Of a stretch of DNA of 64,000 bases, positions 10,918 through 19,143 are shown one piece after another; positions within the stretch are counted from its first letter, which is position 1, and every line of letters begins with the position of its first letter. Location: NCBI RefSeq assembly GCF_000419685.1, contig NZ_ATTM01000007.1, positions 1 through 64,000 on the forward strand. Reading direction: 5' to 3'. The stretch comes from Flavobacterium antarcticum DSM 19726. Its GTDB lineage: Bacteria > Bacteroidota > Bacteroidia > Flavobacteriales > Flavobacteriaceae. The notes below the pieces were generated by a model. That model searched no databases. It saw nothing but the letters and a program-made list of their open reading frames with translations, and was not told the origin of the DNA. The translations under genes and the position numbers were made by a program.

Positions 10918-11487
10918 ATGAATAAGAAAAATTGGTTTGTATATTTTTTGGCAATTGGATTATTTATAGTTTCAAGCTGTAAAGACGATGTTTTACCTAA
11001 ACCAACTTCTAGTTTGCGACTGGATTATCCCGAAGCAACTTACAAAACGTTTGAAGACGCTTCGTGTCCGTTTACATTTGAAGTGAACAGTGATGGGAAA
11101 GTGATTCAAGAAAAAAACTGCAACTTGACCATTCAATACCCAAAAATGAAAGCGACGATTTATCTCACATTTCAACCCATAAACAACAACATCAATTTGC
11201 TTTTAAGAGACGCTCAAACGCTGACTTACAAACATGTAGTAAAAGCAGATGACATTGTAGAACAACCTTTTATAAATAAAAAAGATGGTGTTTACGGAAT
11301 GTACTATGCGGTTAATGGTAATGCAGCTACGAATGCTCAATTTTATTTGACTGACAGTACAAGTTACTTTGTAGATTGTTCCGTTTACTTCTATGCAAAA
11401 CCTAACTTTGATTCGATCATGCCTGCTGCAAGTTATTTAAGAAATGATTTACAGAATATGATGGAAAGCTTCCGTTGGAAGAAATAA
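10918..11487 (+). CDS. gldD: gliding motility lipoprotein GldD
   Basis: 189 aa from MNKKNWFVYFLAIGLFIVSS followed by Cys, a lipoprotein signal with its lipobox cysteine at residue 21. An in-frame ATG at 10873 would prefix 15 residues ahead of the signal peptide and is unlikely. Recognisable GldD text includes LDYPEATYKTFEDASCPFTF and the C-terminal DSIMPAASYLRNDLQNMMES. GldD is a lipoprotein needed for gliding and chitin use in F. johnsoniae. Oddity: the last 125 bases of this gene recur at 18404-18528, 7.04 kb downstream and next to tdk, with four mismatches. The full-length gene therefore carries one of two 3' ends bracketing an accessory island. Confidence 0.92.
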   Translation: MNKKNWFVYFLAIGLFIVSSCKDDVLPKPTSSLRLDYPEATYKTFEDASCPFTFEVNSDGKVIQEKNCNLTIQYPKMKATIYLTFQPINNNINLLLRDAQTLTYKHVVKADDIVEQPFINKKDGVYGMYYAVNGNAATNAQFYLTDSTSYFVDCSVYFYAKPNFDSIMPAASYLRNDLQNMMESFRWKK

Positions 11488-11488
11488 T
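11364..11488 (+). repeat. gldD 3'-end repeat, copy A (left edge of island)
   Basis: These 125 bases, ending one base after the gldD stop, match 18404-18528 at a constant offset of 7040 with four mismatches (two in the CSVYFYAK codons, two in the MESFRW codons). Outside these limits the flanks diverge at once on the right and mostly on the left. Confidence 0.9.
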
Positions 11489-11528
11489 TCTTCCTCTTTA
11501 TTCTTAAAACCTCTTTATTGTAAAATTC

Positions 11529-11902
11529 ATGATACAAAAACTTCTATTTTTTTAGTTCTATCATTAAGTATTTATGCTCAAACCAATTCTGCTAAAGTAA
11601 ATTATTCATTAAAAATTGGTTAAGACGAAGGTTTTCCAAATGCGGAAGCTGTAAAAGATTATTATGCAATGGCTCAAAAAGGTGCTGAATTTGTGCATTT
11701 TGATTTAGAAGCTAACAAAGTGGTTTCCTATTCTGAGATGAAAGAACAATTAGCAATAAATGATTCAAGTGGATTACGCAAAGAAGCTAAAGTCACAGGA
11801 ATGAGTGATAAAGATGCGAATAAAGCAGGTTTAAAAATGTATTTTTGGTGTAAAGGTGAAAATGTTAAAAACATGACATTTGATTTACAAAAATCTAATT
11901 AA
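11529..11902 (+). pseudogene. broken secreted GLPGLI-like gene (frameshift plus internal stop)
   Basis: ATG at 11529 reads MIQKLLFF then stops at TAG after a run of seven T (11547-11553). One extra T would restore FLVLSLSIYAQTNSAKVNYS, a signal peptide and the KVNY-type start common in GLPGLI proteins. The restored frame then meets TAA at 11621 and continues open (DEGFPNAEAVKDYYAMAQKG onwards) to 11902. The KGAEFVHFDLEANKVVSYSE segment resembles the first third of GLPGLI proteins, but the GLPGLI motif itself is absent. It is the first gene of the island and appears dead. Confidence 0.65.
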
Positions 11903-11918
11903 CTCAAAAAAATAGAGA

Positions 11919-11948
11919 GGCTGCCTCAAATTTATTTTTGAAACAGCC
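11919..11948 (+). terminator. hairpin after the broken gene, weak terminator
   Basis: GGCTG pairs with CAGCC and, inside, CAAA with TTTG, separated by an internal loop. No good T run follows on the plus strand, so terminator function is doubtful. Confidence 0.35.
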
Positions 11949-11966
11949 CCATTTAAAAATCATATT

Positions 11967-12680
11967 ATGAAAAGAAAAGTAATCTTTATTTTTACGCTCT
12001 TAATCGTATGTTTATCATTTGCTCAACAGAAAAATGTAAATGTTCAATATGTTGTAAAAATAGATAATGAAAAGGAATTATTTAATAGTAATCCTAGTCT
12101 AAGACAAATGTTTGATAATGCTCGAATGGGGTCTAATAATTTGCAATTTAATTTAATTATTAATAATTCAGGCTCAAAATTCTACGAAAATTCTATATTG
12201 TCAATTTCTGAAAACAATATAAAGAATGCAACTCTTTTTACTGGGTATTCGGGTATAACGTATCAATTTGAAAATAATATTTTTCAAGAAATGAACTACA
12301 TAGAAAAGGGTACTTTGATAAAAGAGCCGCTAAAAGATAATTGGGAATTACAAAATGAAACGAAGATGATTGATAATTATTTATGTTATAAAGCAACTAA
12401 TGTAAATCGAATAGACAATGGGTCTGGAAAGATATTTAATCATCCTGTTATTGCATGGTATTGTCCAGAACTTCCATACAGATATGGACCAAATGGGTAT
12501 AGTAACTTGCCGGGTTTAATATTAGAACTACAAGTTAGAAATGTGATTTTTGGTGCAAAAAAAATAGATTTGAATTCAAATATTAATTTTGATTTATCAT
12601 TTCTACAAAATGTAAAAACCATTTCCTTAGAAGCTTACAATAAACAACTTGAGCAAAACGCAGAAAATTTTAAAGGTTGA
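11967..12680 (+). CDS. GLPGLI family protein
   Basis: 237 aa with signal peptide MKRKVIFIFTLLIVCLSFAQ. The family hallmarks are KMIDNYLCYKATNV, VIAWYCPELPYRYGPNGY and NLPGLILEL (~residues 185-195; the first Gly of GLPGLI is Asn here). GLPGLI proteins are exported beta-rich proteins of unknown function, common in Flavobacteriia and often beside carboxypeptidase-regulatory/TonB-type outer-membrane proteins, as here. It is most similar to the copy at 14763; the two share the WEL..E.K.ID pattern, IDNG, AWYCP, LPGLILEL..RNVI.G and KIDLN.N. This suggests a tandem duplication together with the downstream gene. Confidence 0.85.
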   Translation: MKRKVIFIFTLLIVCLSFAQQKNVNVQYVVKIDNEKELFNSNPSLRQMFDNARMGSNNLQFNLIINNSGSKFYENSILSISENNIKNATLFTGYSGITYQFENNIFQEMNYIEKGTLIKEPLKDNWELQNETKMIDNYLCYKATNVNRIDNGSGKIFNHPVIAWYCPELPYRYGPNGYSNLPGLILELQVRNVIFGAKKIDLNSNINFDLSFLQNVKTISLEAYNKQLEQNAENFKG

Positions 12681-12734
12681 TTTATCCTAAAGTTTATTGT
12701 CTAAATGATTAATTTTATTGTTCATTAAAATTTC

Positions 12735-12992
12735 ATGCCCAAATCCCGACTACTTTTCCTCCTACTTTCCATCTCCGTCTTTTCCCAAAAAACCATAACA
12801 GGAGTAGTTTCTGATTCCTTAAATCAACCTTTAGAATCCGCTAATTTAATTGCAAAACCTTTGCAAGAAAAAGCAGGAATTAAGTTTGCCATGGCTGATA
12901 CTAAAGGACGTTTTCGATCAGAACTCGATAATAATGTAAAATATGGAATCGTCGTTTCCTATATTGGTTATACCGAAGAAGTTTTGATTTAA
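12735..12992 (+). pseudogene. truncated copy of the TonB-type outer-membrane protein N-terminus
   Basis: 85 codons that almost repeat the first 85 residues of the protein at 15519: signal peptide ending VFSQ, then KTITGVVSDSLNQPLESANL, KPLQEKAGIKFAMAD and VVSYIGYT. The frame stops at TAA right after EEVLI, where the long copy continues with VEPNST. This is a carboxypeptidase-regulatory-like domain without plug or barrel, so it is a truncated duplicate. It might still make an 85-aa secreted domain, but a remnant is more likely. It follows a GLPGLI gene exactly as the long copy does. Confidence 0.8.
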
Positions 12993-13164
12993 TTAAACAA
13001 GAATTAAGAAAATGTATAGTTTTTCTATACCAATTAGTACAGAAAAATGATACATTTTCATAAATAACAATTTTAAATTTTGCTAACAGAAATTAATGCT
13101 ACAATTTTATAAAAGGTTTAATGCATTAACCAAAAATAATTTATAAATTTAATAGTTAAACAAA

Positions 13165-13443
13165 ACGAAAAAAGTTATTTTTAGTGCTATCGCAATGATA
13201 GCATTTGTAGGAAGTAGTATGGCGAATAACGCCGCGGTTAAAGAAGAAAAAATTAAATTGGAAGAAATTGCAACGGATTGTAAAAAGTATGCAGCAGCAG
13301 CTGTTAAAGTTGAAACAATAGCGGCTGAGCAACCGATGACACAATCAGAATTTGCAGCAGCTTACGCTTCATACTATAATTTTTGCGTTGATGCTAATTA
13401 CTCAGGCTCTGTTCCATTGCTTCCTGTTTTAATAAAAAAATAG
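13165..13443 (+). CDS. small secreted protein with non-ATG start (ACG) or mutated start
   Basis: The frame reads ACG AAA AAA GTT ATT TTT AGT then GCT ATC GCA ATG. With ACG as Met it becomes MKKVIFSAIAMIAFVGSSMA, a standard signal peptide. The first ATG (13195) would remove the basic n-region; TAG closes the frame at 13153 and no ATG lies between. Mature residues contain two cysteines (TDCKKYAAAAV and YYNFCVDANYSG) that could form a disulfide. 92 aa from ACG, 82 from ATG. Function unknown. A good terminator follows, which suggests it was recently a functional gene. Confidence 0.55.
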   Translation, partial: TKKVIFSAIAMIAFVGSSMANNAAVKEEKIKLEEIATDCKKYAAAAVKVETIAAEQPMTQSEFAAAYASYYNFCVDANYSGSVPLLPVLIKK

Positions 13444-13452
13444 TACTATTCT

Positions 13453-13482
13453 AGCCTAAAATTCTTTTTTAGGCTTTTTTCT
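13453..13482 (+). terminator. rho-independent terminator of the small secreted gene
   Basis: AGCCTAAAA and TTTTAGGCT flank a short loop and are followed by a T run, 10 bases after the stop of the small gene. Confidence 0.75.
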
Positions 13483-13497
13483 TTAAAATTTTCAAAT

Positions 13498-14220
13498 ATG
13501 AAAAAGTTGTTTTGCTTGGTTTTATTTCTGGGTTGGATTACATTTATAAATGCACAAAAAAAAGTTGGAATAGAATGTTATTATAAGATAATAGTTCAAG
13601 AATTCACAGTCGATGAGTTGAATAAAATAACCAACGACCAGAATATAAAAGATAATATTATAAATCGTATAGCAGATGCAAAAAAAAGAGAATTTGTATT
13701 AAAGGGAAACTTAGACAATGCTTTTTTCTATGAAAAAGAGCGGATGAAAAGCGATGAGATTAATTATAAGCGTCAATCAGCTGTTACTGATAATTATTAT
13801 TATCGTTTGGCTGGAAAGGACGTTGTTATGGCGACATTTTTGGGTCAACAATTATATGTTAAACTGGATGTAAATAAGTACAATTGGAAAATTAGTGCTG
13901 AGACCAAATTAATAGATGGTTACTTGTGTTACAAAGCTACTGGAATTCATGTAGTTGACGATTTTAGGGGAAAAAAGAATTATAACTTAGTAGCGTGGTT
14001 CTGTCCAGAATTACCTTATAACTACGGTCCAGCTGGATTTTTCGGTTTACCAGGTTTAATTTTTGAGACACTTTATGAAAATGCAAAAGAGAAGTATGTT
14101 TTACAGTCCATAAAGTTTTACGATGATTTGACAATAGAATCGGTGGGAAGTAATAAACTTATTGACGAAAAGGAGTTTACAAATATATTTAATAAGATGA
14201 TGGAAGATATGGGCAATTAA
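13498..14220 (+). CDS. GLPGLI family protein
   Basis: 240 aa with signal peptide MKKLFCLVLFLGWITFINAQ. The signature region is KLIDGYLCYKATGIHVV, VAWFCPELPYNYGPAGF and GLPGLIFETLYENA (~residues 180-195). It is more diverged from the copies at 11967 and 14763 than those are from each other. Function unknown. It starts 15 bases after the preceding terminator and is followed by the decayed transposase. Confidence 0.85.
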   Translation: MKKLFCLVLFLGWITFINAQKKVGIECYYKIIVQEFTVDELNKITNDQNIKDNIINRIADAKKREFVLKGNLDNAFFYEKERMKSDEINYKRQSAVTDNYYYRLAGKDVVMATFLGQQLYVKLDVNKYNWKISAETKLIDGYLCYKATGIHVVDDFRGKKNYNLVAWFCPELPYNYGPAGFFGLPGLIFETLYENAKEKYVLQSIKFYDDLTIESVGSNKLIDEKEFTNIFNKMMEDMGN

Positions 14221-14281
14221 ATAATTTTCGAGATTAAATTAAATTGAGGTGTTCAAATAAATTCTTAACTTATAAAAAAAA

Positions 14282-14757
14282 ATGGAGATATTTACTGGAC
14301 AAAATATATTTAAATTTGCTAAAAAATTTAAAACAGAAAAAGATTGTTTATCCTATTTAGTCGACAAAAAATGGTCAAATGGATTTAGTTGTAAAAAGCG
14401 TAATCATTCTAAATTTACAATAGGAAAGAAAATTACGCACGAGATTGTAATCGCTTTCATCACGTTGAAAGTCCAACAGCAAACACTTTGTTTCATAGAG
14501 TTCGTTTTGGTTTAAAAATGCTTTTTTTATTGCTTTTGACATGAGTACATCTACCAAAGGTCTATCAGCAAGCTAGATGGCGAAACGACTTAAAATAAGC
14601 AGAACTACTTCTTGGACTTTTATGCATAAAATCCGCATTGCAAGGAAAAGTTCTGAATCGCAACCACTTGTAAATCCGTTTCAAGTTAATGAATTTGTTT
14701 TGGGTGGTAAAGAAGATTTGAAACAAGTCTTGATATACAAGACTTGTTTAATTTAAA
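14282..14757 (+). pseudogene. decayed IS1595-type transposase
   Basis: Four successive frame fragments together read like the N-terminal half of an IS1595-family transposase: KFKTEKDCLSYLVDKKWSNG with a degraded zinc ribbon (SCKKRNHSKF), then HHVESPTANTLFHRVRFGLK, then MSTSTKGLSA, then RTTSWTFMHKIRIA and NEFVLGGKEDLKQ. Typical family words are FKTEKDC..YL, TLFHK.KFGL, STS.KG.S, TSW.F.HKIR and EFV.GG.E. There are frameshifts and stops between the pieces, and the DDE C-terminal part is missing. No clear terminal inverted repeats were recognised. It marks past mobile-element activity within the island. Confidence 0.8.
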
Positions 14758-14762
14758 AGCAT

Positions 14763-15470
14763 ATGAAAAATACAATTATTATTTTACTGCTACTTACTAA
14801 TTGTATTAGCTACTGCCAGATTTTAGACGGAAGCATTCAATACGGCATAATTATTACTGATGATCCCGATTTTGATAAAGGACCTGGAGAGGAGTTTTTA
14901 AAAGTAGCAAAAGAATCAACACATTATTTGTCATGTACTTTGATATTCAATGAGCAACAATCCGTCTTTTTTATTGATGAAATGATGGATATAAATCAAA
15001 GTAATATTTCTATGGCTATTGCTTTTAGTGGAGTTTCAGGAAAGTATTATAATATTAAAAAGACATCTTTACTTTTAAGGGAGTTTGAAGAGGAAGGATT
15101 TGGGAAAATCATTCTTCAATCTCAATATAATTATAATTGGGAGCTACTAAACGAAAGTAAAAAAATTGATGGATTAACTTGTTTCAAAGCATCAAGAATA
15201 ATGACAATTGATAATGGGGATGCAGGTGTTTTTAATAGAACAATAACCGCTTGGTATTGTCCTTCAATACCAGTGCCTTATGGACCTGCAGGAGAAGGAG
15301 GCTTGCCAGGATTGATATTGGAATTACATAATAGAAACGTGATTTTAGGTGTTAGAAAAATAGATCTAAATCCAAATAAAAAAAATGTAATTACTTTGCC
15401 TACTAAAGGCAAATGGCTGTCAGAAAAAGAATATTCTAAAATGCTTGACGACATCATTAATGAAGATTAA
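14763..15470 (+). CDS. GLPGLI family protein
   Basis: 235 aa with an N-terminal hydrophobic signal (MKNTIIILLLLTNCISYCQI). It has the complete motif set: KKIDGLTCFKASRI, ITAWYCPSIPVPYGPAG and GGLPGLILELHNRNVILG (~residues 178-198). It is the closest relative of the gene at 11967 and, like it, sits immediately upstream of the TonB-type gene (48-base gap), so the pair probably acts together at the cell envelope. Biochemical role unknown. Confidence 0.88.
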   Translation: MKNTIIILLLLTNCISYCQILDGSIQYGIIITDDPDFDKGPGEEFLKVAKESTHYLSCTLIFNEQQSVFFIDEMMDINQSNISMAIAFSGVSGKYYNIKKTSLLLREFEEEGFGKIILQSQYNYNWELLNESKKIDGLTCFKASRIMTIDNGDAGVFNRTITAWYCPSIPVPYGPAGEGGLPGLILELHNRNVILGVRKIDLNPNKKNVITLPTKGKWLSEKEYSKMLDDIINED

Positions 15471-15518
15471 ATGTGAAATTGATAATCTAAAGATATTTTT
15501 TATTAAAAAATTTGCTAA

Positions 15519-18185
15519 ATGCCCAAATCCCTACTATTTTTCCTCCTCATTTCCTTCTCCGTCTTTTCCCAAAAAACCATAACAGGAGTAGTTTCTGATT
15601 CCTTAAACCAACCCTTAGAATCCGCAAATTTAATTGCAAAACCGCTTCAAGAAAAAGCAGGAATTAAGTTTGCCATGGCTGATAATAAAGGCCGTTTTCG
15701 TTTAGAATTAGACAGTCATGTAAAGTACGAAATTGTAGTTTCTTACATCGGTTATACCCAAGAAGTGCTAATCGTTGAGCCAAATTCAACAATAACTACA
15801 CACAACTTTAAACTAAAAGCTACTGGTGAAAACCTAAAAGAAATCATCATCAAGCACGAATTCAAACCCATCATTATCAAGAAAGATACGATGACATTTG
15901 ACGTCGCCAGTTTTGCCAACGGAAACGAACGTAAAATGAAGGAAATCCTCGAAAAACTTCCCGGAGTCGAAGTCGATAAAAATGGCGGTGTTACCGTTCA
16001 AGGAAAAAAAGTAACCAAACTTTTAGTAGAAGGAAAGTCATTTTTTGGAGGCGGAACAAAACTTGCCGTGGAAAATATTCCAGCCAATGCTTTAGATAAA
16101 ATTGAAGTGATAGACCACTTTAATGAAGTTGGTTTTATGAAAGAGGTTTCGGATTCTGAAGATTTGGCAATGAATGTAAAACTCAAGGAAGATAAAAAGA
16201 AATTTGTTTTTGGCGATGTAGAAGCCGGTGCCGAAGTAGGAAACGGCGATAATAGTTTTTATTTGGCTCATGCAGCCTTGTTTTATTACAGTCCAAAAGG
16301 AAATGTGAGTTTCATTGGCGATAGCAATAATGTAGGGCGAAGTACTTTTACCTATCAAGATTTGATGCGTTTTGATGGTGGTGCAAGTAGCTTTTTAACC
16401 GGCAGAAAATCACTTACAAATCTGTATTCGTTTACCAATGATAACACTGATGTGGTAGAAAATAAGTCGCATTTTGGCGCACTAAATTTTAGTTATACGG
16501 CTTCGCCAAAGTTGGAAATTTCGGGTTTTGCCATATTCAGTAAAGTGATTATGAATCAAAAACTGGAAAGCAACATCCAATATTTGCAAAATGAATCATT
16601 GACTTTTGAAAAAAGAAAACAATCCGATGAAAATAAAACCTTTTTAGGAATTGGAAATGTAAAGTTGGATTATTCGCCTAATAAAAAAGAAAAAATCTAT
16701 TACAACGGACAATTTCAGTCGAGTAATAACGATGGAATTAATTTGCTGAAATCAGCAACTAATTTAAATTCCAGCACTTTTGAGACTTTGCAAAAGGCCG
16801 ATAATACCTCAGTGAAGCAATATGTAGAATGGCATAAAAGCATCAATCAAAACCACACGACCACTTTAGTAATCAATCAAGCTTTTGAAGAAACCACACC
16901 ACAAAATACGTGGTTTACAGACCAATCTTTTTTACCGGGATTGATTCCGCTACAAGACGATTCGACTTATACGATTAACCAAATTAATAAAACCAAAAAC
17001 AACAGCATCGATGCTTTGTTCAAGCATTATTGGATTATCAATAACTTCAATCATTTGTATACCAATGTGGGAAATAATTATGGGAAATCGCAATACATCA
17101 CGTCCGAAAAGCAACTTTTAACCAACGGAACGGTGAATGATTTTGCTTCTGCAGGTTTTGGAAACGACGTCAATTATCAACTAAACGACGCTTATATTGG
17201 GTTGGAATATAAATTCAAAATAGGCATTTGGACCAATAAACCCGGAATTTATTTTCATTGGTATGATTTAAAAACGCAACAATTTGATTCAGATTATCAG
17301 TTGTCTAAAACTTTATTTCAACCCCAATTTACGAGCGAACTGGAATTTAATAAATCAGAAAGTTTAGAATTTAATTACAAGTTAGAAAACGATTTTCCCG
17401 ATGTCAATTTGTTAGCCAATAATTTCCGATTGCAGAGTTACAATTCGGTTTACAAAGGAAATGCGTTGTTGCGAAACGAACGATTTCACAATGCTTCCTT
17501 GAATTACAGAAAAATGAATATGTACCGCGGCATCACTTGGTATACAAGAGCAAGTTTCAATAAAAAAGCAAGAACAATACGAAACGATGTTGTTTTGCAA
17601 GGCATCAATCAATTCAGCACGCCTATAATTACAGATAATCCAGAAACAAATTGGAATTTTTATGGGTCTTTTGAAAAGAAAATTTACCACTTTAAAGCAG
17701 GAATTAATACCTCCTTCGGCTGGTTTACGTATACACAAACGGTAAACGACATCAGTACCCAAAACGACCGTAACCGCCAAAACATCGGCGTTACTTTAAG
17801 AACCGCAAATAGAAAGTGGCCTGATTTAGAAGTAGGTTACACGAAGGGATTTAGTGCTTTTAATGGCTTAACTTCTTCCCATTATAAAACAGATGCTTTT
17901 AATGCAAGTGGTTCGGTTGAGTTTTTGAAGAACTTTGTATATAAATTCAGTTATGAAAATTTAAAAAACACGGACGATCGCAACCAAACTAATTTCTACG
18001 AAATTGCCAATACTTCGCTTCGCTATCAAGAAAAAAACAATCCTTTTGGTTTTGAAATTTCGGCAAATAATTTATTTGACAATCGAACTAAAAATAGTTT
18101 CTCCTTCTCTGATTATTCCATTTCAAATTACTCAAGATTTGTAATGCCTCGAGTAATTTTGCTTTCTGTGAGTTATAAACTTTAA
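15519..18185 (+). CDS. TonB-receptor-like outer-membrane beta-barrel protein with carboxypeptidase-regulatory-like domain
   Basis: 888 aa. Signal peptide to VFSQ (~1-18), carboxypeptidase-regulatory-like domain (~20-105, GVVSDSLNQPLESANLIAKP), then a plug-like segment (~125-215, KLPGVEVDKNGGVTVQGKKV and NALDKIEVIDHF). A long barrel rich in alternating aromatic residues ends VILLSVSYKL. This resembles the outer-membrane beta-barrel group often paired with GLPGLI genes. No TonB box was identified, so active transport is not shown. It is the last intact gene of the island; the first 85 residues are duplicated at 12735. The next feature downstream is the second gldD 3' end. Confidence 0.88.
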   Translation: MPKSLLFFLLISFSVFSQKTITGVVSDSLNQPLESANLIAKPLQEKAGIKFAMADNKGRFRLELDSHVKYEIVVSYIGYTQEVLIVEPNSTITTHNFKLKATGENLKEIIIKHEFKPIIIKKDTMTFDVASFANGNERKMKEILEKLPGVEVDKNGGVTVQGKKVTKLLVEGKSFFGGGTKLAVENIPANALDKIEVIDHFNEVGFMKEVSDSEDLAMNVKLKEDKKKFVFGDVEAGAEVGNGDNSFYLAHAALFYYSPKGNVSFIGDSNNVGRSTFTYQDLMRFDGGASSFLTGRKSLTNLYSFTNDNTDVVENKSHFGALNFSYTASPKLEISGFAIFSKVIMNQKLESNIQYLQNESLTFEKRKQSDENKTFLGIGNVKLDYSPNKKEKIYYNGQFQSSNNDGINLLKSATNLNSSTFETLQKADNTSVKQYVEWHKSINQNHTTTLVINQAFEETTPQNTWFTDQSFLPGLIPLQDDSTYTINQINKTKNNSIDALFKHYWIINNFNHLYTNVGNNYGKSQYITSEKQLLTNGTVNDFASAGFGNDVNYQLNDAYIGLEYKFKIGIWTNKPGIYFHWYDLKTQQFDSDYQLSKTLFQPQFTSELEFNKSESLEFNYKLENDFPDVNLLANNFRLQSYNSVYKGNALLRNERFHNASLNYRKMNMYRGITWYTRASFNKKARTIRNDVVLQGINQFSTPIITDNPETNWNFYGSFEKKIYHFKAGINTSFGWFTYTQTVNDISTQNDRNRQNIGVTLRTANRKWPDLEVGYTKGFSAFNGLTSSHYKTDAFNASGSVEFLKNFVYKFSYENLKNTDDRNQTNFYEIANTSLRYQEKNNPFGFEISANNLFDNRTKNSFSFSDYSISNYSRFVMPRVILLSVSYKL

Positions 18186-18403
18186 GAAGTTTCTTAAAAA
18201 CAATGCTGTTTAAATTGTAAAATGGAATTATTTTGCGTTTACGAGGTTTGTAAATTGGTCCGACTATTATAGGATCAATTGGTTTATTTCGAATTATTTT
18301 TATCTAAATCTATCTAGCAATTATTGATTTAAAAATAATCCTACAATTCTAGATGCAAATTAGAAATTCATTTAAAACCGTATGTTTTACTTTACCGCAC
18401 GAA
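18186..18403. other. island right-end spacer
   Basis: 218 bases of AT-rich sequence between the TonB-type gene and gldD repeat copy B. No gene, repeat or att-like palindrome recognised. If the island was inserted, its right junction falls at the end of this stretch. Confidence 0.5.
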
Positions 18404-18528
18404 TTACTTTGTAGATTGTTCCGTTCCCTTCTATGCAAAACCTAACTTTGATTCGATCATGCCTGCTGCAAGTTATTTAAGAAATGATTTACAGAATATG
18501 ATGGAAAGTTTTCGTTGGAAGAAATAAT
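18404..18528 (+). repeat. gldD 3'-end repeat, copy B (gldD pseudogene fragment, right edge of island)
   Basis: In the gldD frame this reads YFVDCSVPFYAKPNFD, then the same C-terminus including SFRWKK and the TAA stop. It is 121/125 identical to 11364-11488. It has no start and is a stranded gene end. It lies 33 bases from the convergent tdk stop, where an ancestral gldD end would be expected if the island were absent. Confidence 0.9.
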
Positions 18529-18561
18529 CAACTCGGGAATTTTCTCAAGTCACCACTAAAA

Positions 18562-19143
18562 CTAATCTTTCTTCATCGCATGATAAAAAGCGGCACGACT
18601 CAACGGTTCATATTCTTCCGTTTCACCAAGCATAACTAATTTATCGCTGTCGTTTTTTCGGAAACTGTAGTTGGCCAGATTTCCCGTTCGTGTACAAACG
18701 GCATGGACTTTCGTCACATATTCAGCAGTTGCCATCAAAGCCGGCATTGGACCAAACGGATTTCCTTTAAAATCCATGTCTAAACCAGCAACAATCACAC
18801 GAATTCCAGAATTAGCAAGATCGTTACAAATGGCGACAATTTCATCATCAAAAAATTGGGCTTCATCAATTCCAACTACATCGCATCCTTGTGCCAGAAT
18901 ACGAATATTTGCCGCAGCAGGAACGGGTGTGGAACGAATTTCATTGCTGTCGTGCGAAACTACCATTTCATCGTGGTATCTCGTATCGACGGCAGGTTTG
19001 AAAATTTCTACTTTTTGCTTGGCAAATTGAGCACGACGAAGTCGACGGATCAGTTCCTCGGTTTTGCCCGAAAACATCGAACCGCAGATTACTTCAATCC
19101 AGCCAAATTGTTCTTTATGATTTACTGTATTTTCGAGAAACAT
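18562..19143 (-). CDS. tdk: thymidine kinase
   Basis: 193 aa TK1-type kinase. P-loop [14 protein letters not shown] (~residues 21-34), the IDEAQFFD Walker B/lid residues, and the catalytic region around [18 protein letters not shown]. It phosphorylates thymidine to dTMP for salvage. The C-terminal zinc module of the family normally has two Cys pairs; here only one Cys remains ([16 protein letters not shown]) and the second pair is LSRAAF. The protein converges on the gldD fragment. Confidence 0.95.

Follow-up and report, generated by a model that had tools for sequence, protein, structure and literature searches.

In the genome of Flavobacterium antarcticum DSM 19726, a stretch of 64,000 nucleotides (nt) of contig NZ_ATTM01000007.1 (positions 1 to 64,000 of the forward strand; referred to here as the window) contains an intact copy of the gliding gene gldD, whose 3' end is found a second time some 7 kb downstream, beside tdk and on the far side of a block of accessory genes. 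Second 3' ends of gldD also lie behind cargo genes in other Flavobacterium genomes, and in four cases other than the window the DNA that follows the distal copy matches the DNA that follows gldD itself in a relative. We put at about two in three the probability that these structures are formed when donor DNA recombines homologously inside gldD on one side and is sealed by an illegitimate joint on the other, a process that would provide gldD with a new 3' end and leave its old end stranded beyond the acquired genes. The uptake of donor DNA, its one-sided recombination and the same origin for the window are what we infer from this anatomy.

A second 3' end of gldD

The gldD gene of the window is found at positions 10918-11487 of the forward strand and is intact (Pfam GldD_lipo, 3.5e-61; TIGR03512, 242 bits). 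Alignment of the two copies of its end, 11364-11488 and 18404-18528, returns 121 identical positions out of 125, on the same strand and at an offset of 7040. These are the figures that a sequence-only reading of the window had given, and all of them were reproduced, as was its placing of the right copy 33 bases from tdk, the spacer between the distal copy and the tdk stop codon being 18529-18561. The proximal copy (11364..11488, +) comprises the last 124-125 nt of gldD and is read as the replacement end. The distal copy (18404..18528, +) ends at the stop codon and is read as the stranded old end, the right end of the repeat being one base past the stop codon of gldD. Distal versus proximal, the copies differ by TA>CC at 11386-11387, which is a Tyr>Pro change, and by C>T at both 11469 and 11472, each of which is synonymous. 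A third copy was not found, since a 201-base query of the 3.08-Mb, 15-contig genome returned two places only.

Recurrence of the repeat in Flavobacterium

The C-terminal 44 amino acids (aa) of GldD were searched against 398 genomes of the genus, of which 392 gave a match at an E-value of 0.01. Two matches were found in six of the 392, and four of these are real, namely those in the window genome, G237, G277 (F. piscinae) and G090. The second matches of G382 and G403 were dropped, being weak, located on other contigs and broken by internal stops. In the four genomes the second 3' fragment is on the same strand and contig as gldD, 2.5-7 kb downstream. The repeat is 270 nt long in G237 (90.4% identity), about 160 nt in G090 (90%), 125 nt in the window and 91 nt in G277 (95.6%); the right ends of these four long repeats fall at the end of the stop codon, -1 to +2 nt, and the left ends vary, from 91 to 270 nt. 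The 44-residue query misses short remnants, such as that of L037 described below.

To place these repeats against a background, 120 gldD neighbourhoods were fetched, some of them cut by contig ends, and each gldD was compared with its own downstream DNA. The resulting set of 132 loci is made up of nine named loci less three duplicates, these 120, six more and the window, minus those with downstream DNA that is too short. It includes G237, G277 and G090, which were fetched as positives already known from the 44-residue search, and it holds one genome twice, since L036 and L188 are the same. The end of gldD scored 110, 98.5, 80.5 and 76.5 against its own downstream DNA at the four repeat loci, the next score being 17 and the best reverse-strand control 16, so that chance is excluded as the source of the repeat. 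Outside the genus, a second copy of the gldD end was found in none of the single genomes taken from each of 128 genera (one of which gave no match at all), which at a rate of 1% is no evidence of absence. No viral contig matched the GldD peptide patterns, and phage transport of the gldD end is thus without support here.

The cargo of G237 comprises a 708-aa protein that carries an AHH nuclease domain at its C-terminus and, behind it, an Imm11-like immunity gene and a gene of 230 aa. In G277 there is a 505-aa protein without a family and a DUF6705 gene, and in G090 a two-component system (a LuxR-type response regulator and a histidine kinase) together with three other genes. By eye, the DNA immediately ahead of the distal copy in F. 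piscinae shows a short resemblance to part of the 505-aa protein.

Native DNA behind the distal copy

The 160 nt after each copy were compared, by local score, with the 160 nt after gldD in relatives. With the post-gldD DNA of a relative the distal flank scored 77.5 in G237, 35.5 in G277, 130.5 in G090 and 144 in L037, against medians of 12-18 over the 132 loci, whereas the best scores of the proximal flank were 18.5, 23, 20.5 and 40, respectively. The native flank is shared between G237 and L159, G277 and G385, G090 and L116, and L037 and L038; no such pair was found for the window. As native DNA follows the distal copy in these four cases, this copy is best regarded as the former end of gldD, still at its original position.

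The closest comparison is that between L037, a Flavobacteriales metagenome-assembled genome, and L038, which is F. filum, as 496 of the last 500 nt of their gldD genes are identical. In F. filum an HMA gene (PF00403) lies about 30 nt 3' of gldD. In L037 the gene for a 254-aa M90 peptidase (MtfA-like) intervenes and is followed by 14-20 nt of the gldD end. With the last 20 nt of gldD taken as the starting point, the distal context of L037 is identical to F. filum at 77 of 80 positions, and the proximal context at 34 of 80. The best match of the proximal context, with the score of 40, is to G385, in which the gene immediately behind gldD is 80% identical to the inserted one; this relative of the L037 gene is a PF06167 member. 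A single donor clade was sought for the four gldD-end differences between L037 and F. filum, and no clear match emerged.

Neighbours of gldD and tdk

The HMA gene is the usual neighbour of gldD. It lies within 300 nt of gldD at 79 of 127 loci (one genome being present twice), within 1,100 nt at 16 and further away at 6, and was not found at 26, the window included. In F. tegetincola the genes after gldD are the HMA gene, a transporter and two proteases, and the cluster of these neighbours, from the HMA gene to rpmA, is found on contig C9 in the window genome (L193 3979-10553). In G307 (L084 3587-8727) about 5 kb of cargo, with genes of 559 and 1,137 aa, separates gldD from the HMA gene, and no second end of gldD is detectable.

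The 3' neighbour of tdk in F. tegetincola, F. lacus and G385 differs from that in the window. In G111, tdk is located 8.8 kb downstream of gldD, after rplU, which shows that gldD and tdk can lie close together. In the window the distal copy abuts tdk and not a native neighbour, and an empty site was sought without success, so that a further rearrangement has to be assumed there; at least one joined the distal copy to tdk, either before or after the insertion. This rearrangement was not foreseen in the sequence-only reading.

A proposed one-sided insertion and its alternatives

In the mechanism that we favour, donor DNA in which a gldD 3' end is directly followed by accessory genes would enter the cell. 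On the homologous side, a crossover inside the resident gldD would leave the gene whole and furnish it with the donor 3' end. On the illegitimate side, the incoming DNA would be joined within the resident gldD upstream of the stop codon, to produce the order of new gldD end, cargo and old gldD end. The homology between the copies would cease at the stop codon because the donor had its cargo there, and the position of the presumed illegitimate joint is variable, as the left ends of the distal copies differ between species. The sequence-only reading had likewise proposed that foreign DNA brought in a replacement 3' end. That proposal is strengthened by four further species with a native distal flank, and for the window itself it gains only indirectly. 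The uptake of a gldD-linked segment, which had been listed beside it as an alternative, is better seen as part of the same mechanism than as its rival.

The divergence between the copies also bears on their history. Synonymous and non-synonymous codon differences number 23 and 2 in G237, 4 and 0 in G277, 2 and 1 in the window, and 7 and 5, plus indels, in G090. The values for G237 indicate that both copies evolved as working genes, and in G237 and G277, where gldD is intact, the amino-acid sequence of both copies is conserved. A comparison of both 3' ends with orthologous gldD genes, as suggested in the sequence-only reading, was made at up to 126 loci, and similarity to other loci gave no consistent answer as to which copy is foreign. 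The loci closer to the proximal and to the distal copy number 94 and 28 for G237, 9 and 101 for G277, and 62 and 64 for G090, with only small differences among the nearest relatives.

A Campbell-type integration would lead to the same anatomy and would likewise leave the native neighbour in place. In it, a circle bearing the cargo and one gldD 3' fragment undergoes a single crossover with gldD, mediated by RecA or a trans-acting recombinase, much as islands enter at the 3' ends of tRNA or protein genes; the proximal-cargo-distal structure could then regenerate circles by recombination between the copies. We consider this unlikely, as the left ends vary (14-20, 91, 125, about 160 and 270 nt) and define no fixed core, and as no recombinase family was detected in the 8 scanned cargo open reading frames (ORFs) of the window, which are 77 aa or longer, or in the 10 cargo ORFs of at least 100 aa that lie between the copies in G237, G277 and G090. 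A repeat of 14-20 nt, as seen in L037, is furthermore short for RecA. It would be a bolder proposal, and to our minds an improbable one, that gldD ends are portable, integrase-free cassette borders, such that recombination between the copies frees a circle of cargo plus one end, which enters another gldD by a single crossover. If this were true, the 3' ends of core genes would form a shared address through which toxin and surface-protein cassettes are passed around the genus.

Tandem duplication of the gldD end and its downstream DNA, with subsequent deletions and later insertions, had been named as an alternative by the sequence-only reading and would account for the same orientation and the high identity of the copies in the window, where the three changed codons are compatible with it. 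It is nonetheless disfavoured, and we think it very unlikely, because the homology of the four long repeats ends at the stop codon (-1 to +2 nt) and does not extend into shared downstream DNA, because the downstream DNA is native at the distal copy and not at the proximal one in the four other cases, and because the differences are mostly synonymous in three of the four pairs, strongly so in G237 and not in G090. An explanation confined to the window, and compatible with one-sided insertion elsewhere, is that a rearrangement joining tdk to a second gldD end made the repeat, the GLPGLI cargo having arrived separately. The location of the HMA cluster on contig C9 and the presence of other genes after tdk in the three relatives examined closely fit this explanation, which the same repeat shape in three species with a native flank at the distal copy makes unlikely.

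A number of observations weigh against one-sided insertion. In the flank test the distal flank of the window scores 17 at best (median 10) and the proximal flank 23.5, with no clear relative, and the donor of the window cargo at gldD was not found among the surveyed loci. The three changed codons in the window say little about selection. The gldD nearest to that of the window is 76% identical as protein, and the two window copies resemble it to the same degree (0.831 each). Of 126 loci compared, 111 are closer to the proximal copy and 12 to the distal one, which is due in part to the Tyr>Pro change. An arrangement with gldD directly beside tdk, for which the sequence-only reading had proposed to look, occurs in no surveyed relative, the HMA gene being the usual neighbour and tdk lying mostly elsewhere. 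In G090, the 5 non-synonymous changes and the indels of the distal copy fit plain decay. The L037 remnant has a score of 14, which is within the background, and is recognised by its position and flank; the difference between L037 and F. filum could possibly represent a loss in F. filum and not a gain in L037.

The block between the copies in the window

The content between the copies had been described as accessory in the sequence-only reading, and its GLPGLI, TonB-type and truncated genes were recovered, with the transposase label left without a family match. That reading would have been refuted by the same 7-kb block in all close relatives; as the block is found in no surveyed relative, it is not refuted on this ground. 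The block has a G+C content of 31.2%, compared with 35.5% for gldE-gldD. It begins with a decayed ORF (11500..11902, +), interrupted by an in-frame stop, from which a 77-aa ORF without a Pfam or NCBIfam match is left. Three GLPGLI genes follow at intervals on the forward strand: gene 1 at 11967..12680 (TIGR01200, 117 bits; PF09697), gene 2 at 13498..14220 (TIGR01200, 123 bits) and gene 3 at 14763..15470 (TIGR01200, 127 bits). The largest gene of the block (15519..18185, +) is intact and encodes an 888-aa, TonB-type protein with a carboxypeptidase-regulatory domain (PF13715, 2.9e-9). A truncated 5' copy of this TonB-type gene is found at 12735..12992 (+), the homology starting at the ATG; 12735-12982 matches 15519-15766 over 248 nt at 88%, with 17 synonymous and 10 non-synonymous codon differences. 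This 5' remnant is the mirror image of the gldD pattern. There is also a small ORF of 82 aa (13195..13443, +), which has no family and only a sub-threshold NCBIfam match.

The remnant at 14282..14740 (+) is frameshifted and was followed by three-frame translation. It is labelled transposase-like on account of IS1595-like residues and without a family match; its 77-aa ORF gave no Pfam or NCBIfam match and is found at a single place in the window genome, and a plasmid search with the remnant returned weak Persicobacter DNA only. Beyond the distal copy, tdk (18562..19143, -; PF00265, 4.3e-49) is the convergent neighbour.

Proteins of the TonB type found in the window occur, at an identity of at least 39%, in 17 of 121 genomes of the genus, the window genome included, and in the 12 carriers compared its gene lies either on a different contig from gldD or at a distance of over 20 kb from it. 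A second GLPGLI cluster is present on contig C1 of the window genome, beside a TonB-type paralog (35% identity). In F. lacus (L132 3168-11678) gldD is directly followed by GLPGLI genes in a row (six were counted by eye), a 76-aa ORF and a TonB-type gene, and there is no second gldD end.

Scars at other gene ends

Duplicated 3' ends are not restricted to gldD. In 141 stretches (2.87 Mb, after duplicates L033-L035 were dropped), 2,296 ORF 3' ends were compared with up to 8 kb of their downstream DNA, and a match was counted if it was at least 40 nt long and reached within 10 nt of the stop. Such scars were found for 4 of 129 gldD ends and 8 of 2,167 other ends; of the eight, four are in single genes and four in local repeats or repeated ORFs (L040, L195 twice, L196). 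Two of the single genes are ahcY (PF05221), with 51 nt of the 3' end duplicated downstream in L090 (12271-13587, -), where a patatin-like gene (PF01734) lies between the copies, and 117 nt in L186 (3852-5168, +), where a YoeB/ParE-type toxin (PF06769) and a small partner do so. In F. lacus, an M90 peptidase gene (PF06167; L132 12744-13511) has 57 nt from near its 3' end repeated at 16551-16607, behind genes for a 203-aa protein and a 714-aa LRR protein; in F. piscinae, the M90 peptidase gene is directly beside the methyltransferase that follows in F. lacus. In the window genome itself, on contig C9, a 268-aa gene (L193 15212-16018) with only a sub-threshold NAD-binding match has 99 nt of its end repeated at 17179-17277, behind a TPR protein gene, the repeat ending at the stop codon. 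The occurrence of the same scar at other genes argues for a general process.

The data do not establish gldD as a favoured site of insertion. The apparent enrichment of scars at gldD (4/129 against 8/2,167, p = 0.003) was withdrawn as biased, because three of the four gldD positives had been recognised before they were fetched and the fourth, the window, is the observation under study. When the unselected count of 4 in 392 genomes is set against 4 or 8 in 2,167, p is 0.02 or 0.10, and without the window 0.08 or 0.23; the detection methods behind the gldD and other-end counts differ, and neighbouring genes were sampled many times over. A mirror test of 5' ends comprised 1,840 tests and gave matches on 12 ORFs, which by eye are mostly repeats or paralogs, the TonB-type remnant of the window being the clearest.

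Relation to known systems and significance

Tyrosine-integrase islands at gene 3' ends restore the gene end and displace the old one. Unlike these islands, the gldD structures have no integrase in the scanned cargo and no constant core, with repeats that range from 14-20 to 270 nt. Rhs C-terminal displacement, reportedly described by Jackson in 2009, leaves orphaned 3' ends downstream of the active gene; the gldD structures have such orphaned ends in common with it, but the Rhs ends are variable whereas the GldD end is conserved. Homology-facilitated illegitimate recombination is said to have been observed in laboratory transformation and conjugation by de Vries and Wackernagel in 2002, Prudhomme in 2002, and Meier and Wackernagel in 2003. 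The events at gldD are like it in that one joint would be homologous and the other illegitimate, with DNA added without an integrase, and unlike it in that they are read from naturally occurring genomes, where the scar sits at the 3' end of an otherwise intact core gene.

The laboratory work on homology-facilitated illegitimate recombination is cited in PMC5361080 and PMC2884548 (see also PMC3240628), and that on Rhs displacement in PMC5361080. For effector displacement in the type VI secretion system (T6SS) of Vibrio cholerae, Kirchberger 2017 (PMC5361080) proposes a mechanism akin to homology-facilitated illegitimate recombination, citing the laboratory work. As described in that paper, a new module is likewise placed behind a conserved anchor, and in one case the old 3' end was shifted downstream. 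In V. cholerae the anchor is sequence that lies upstream of the effector and immunity genes, and it is the effector that is displaced, whereas at gldD the core gene still encodes its own product and the cargo has no relation to it. Events of this kind are known elsewhere, and the newer part is their anchoring on a core gene, with readable and recurrent scars in Flavobacterium.

Many accessory islands are without an integrase, and their route of entry is usually guessed. The scars described here are readable, as they consist of an intact gene end, cargo, a stranded end and a native flank that can be recognised from relatives. They are found at gldD in five lineages, one of them by a 14-20-nt remnant only, and at three other genes in four loci. 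They offer a means by which one-sided insertions can be counted in nature and a test that can be made in a transformable strain, and they point to an intake of genes that needs no integrase.

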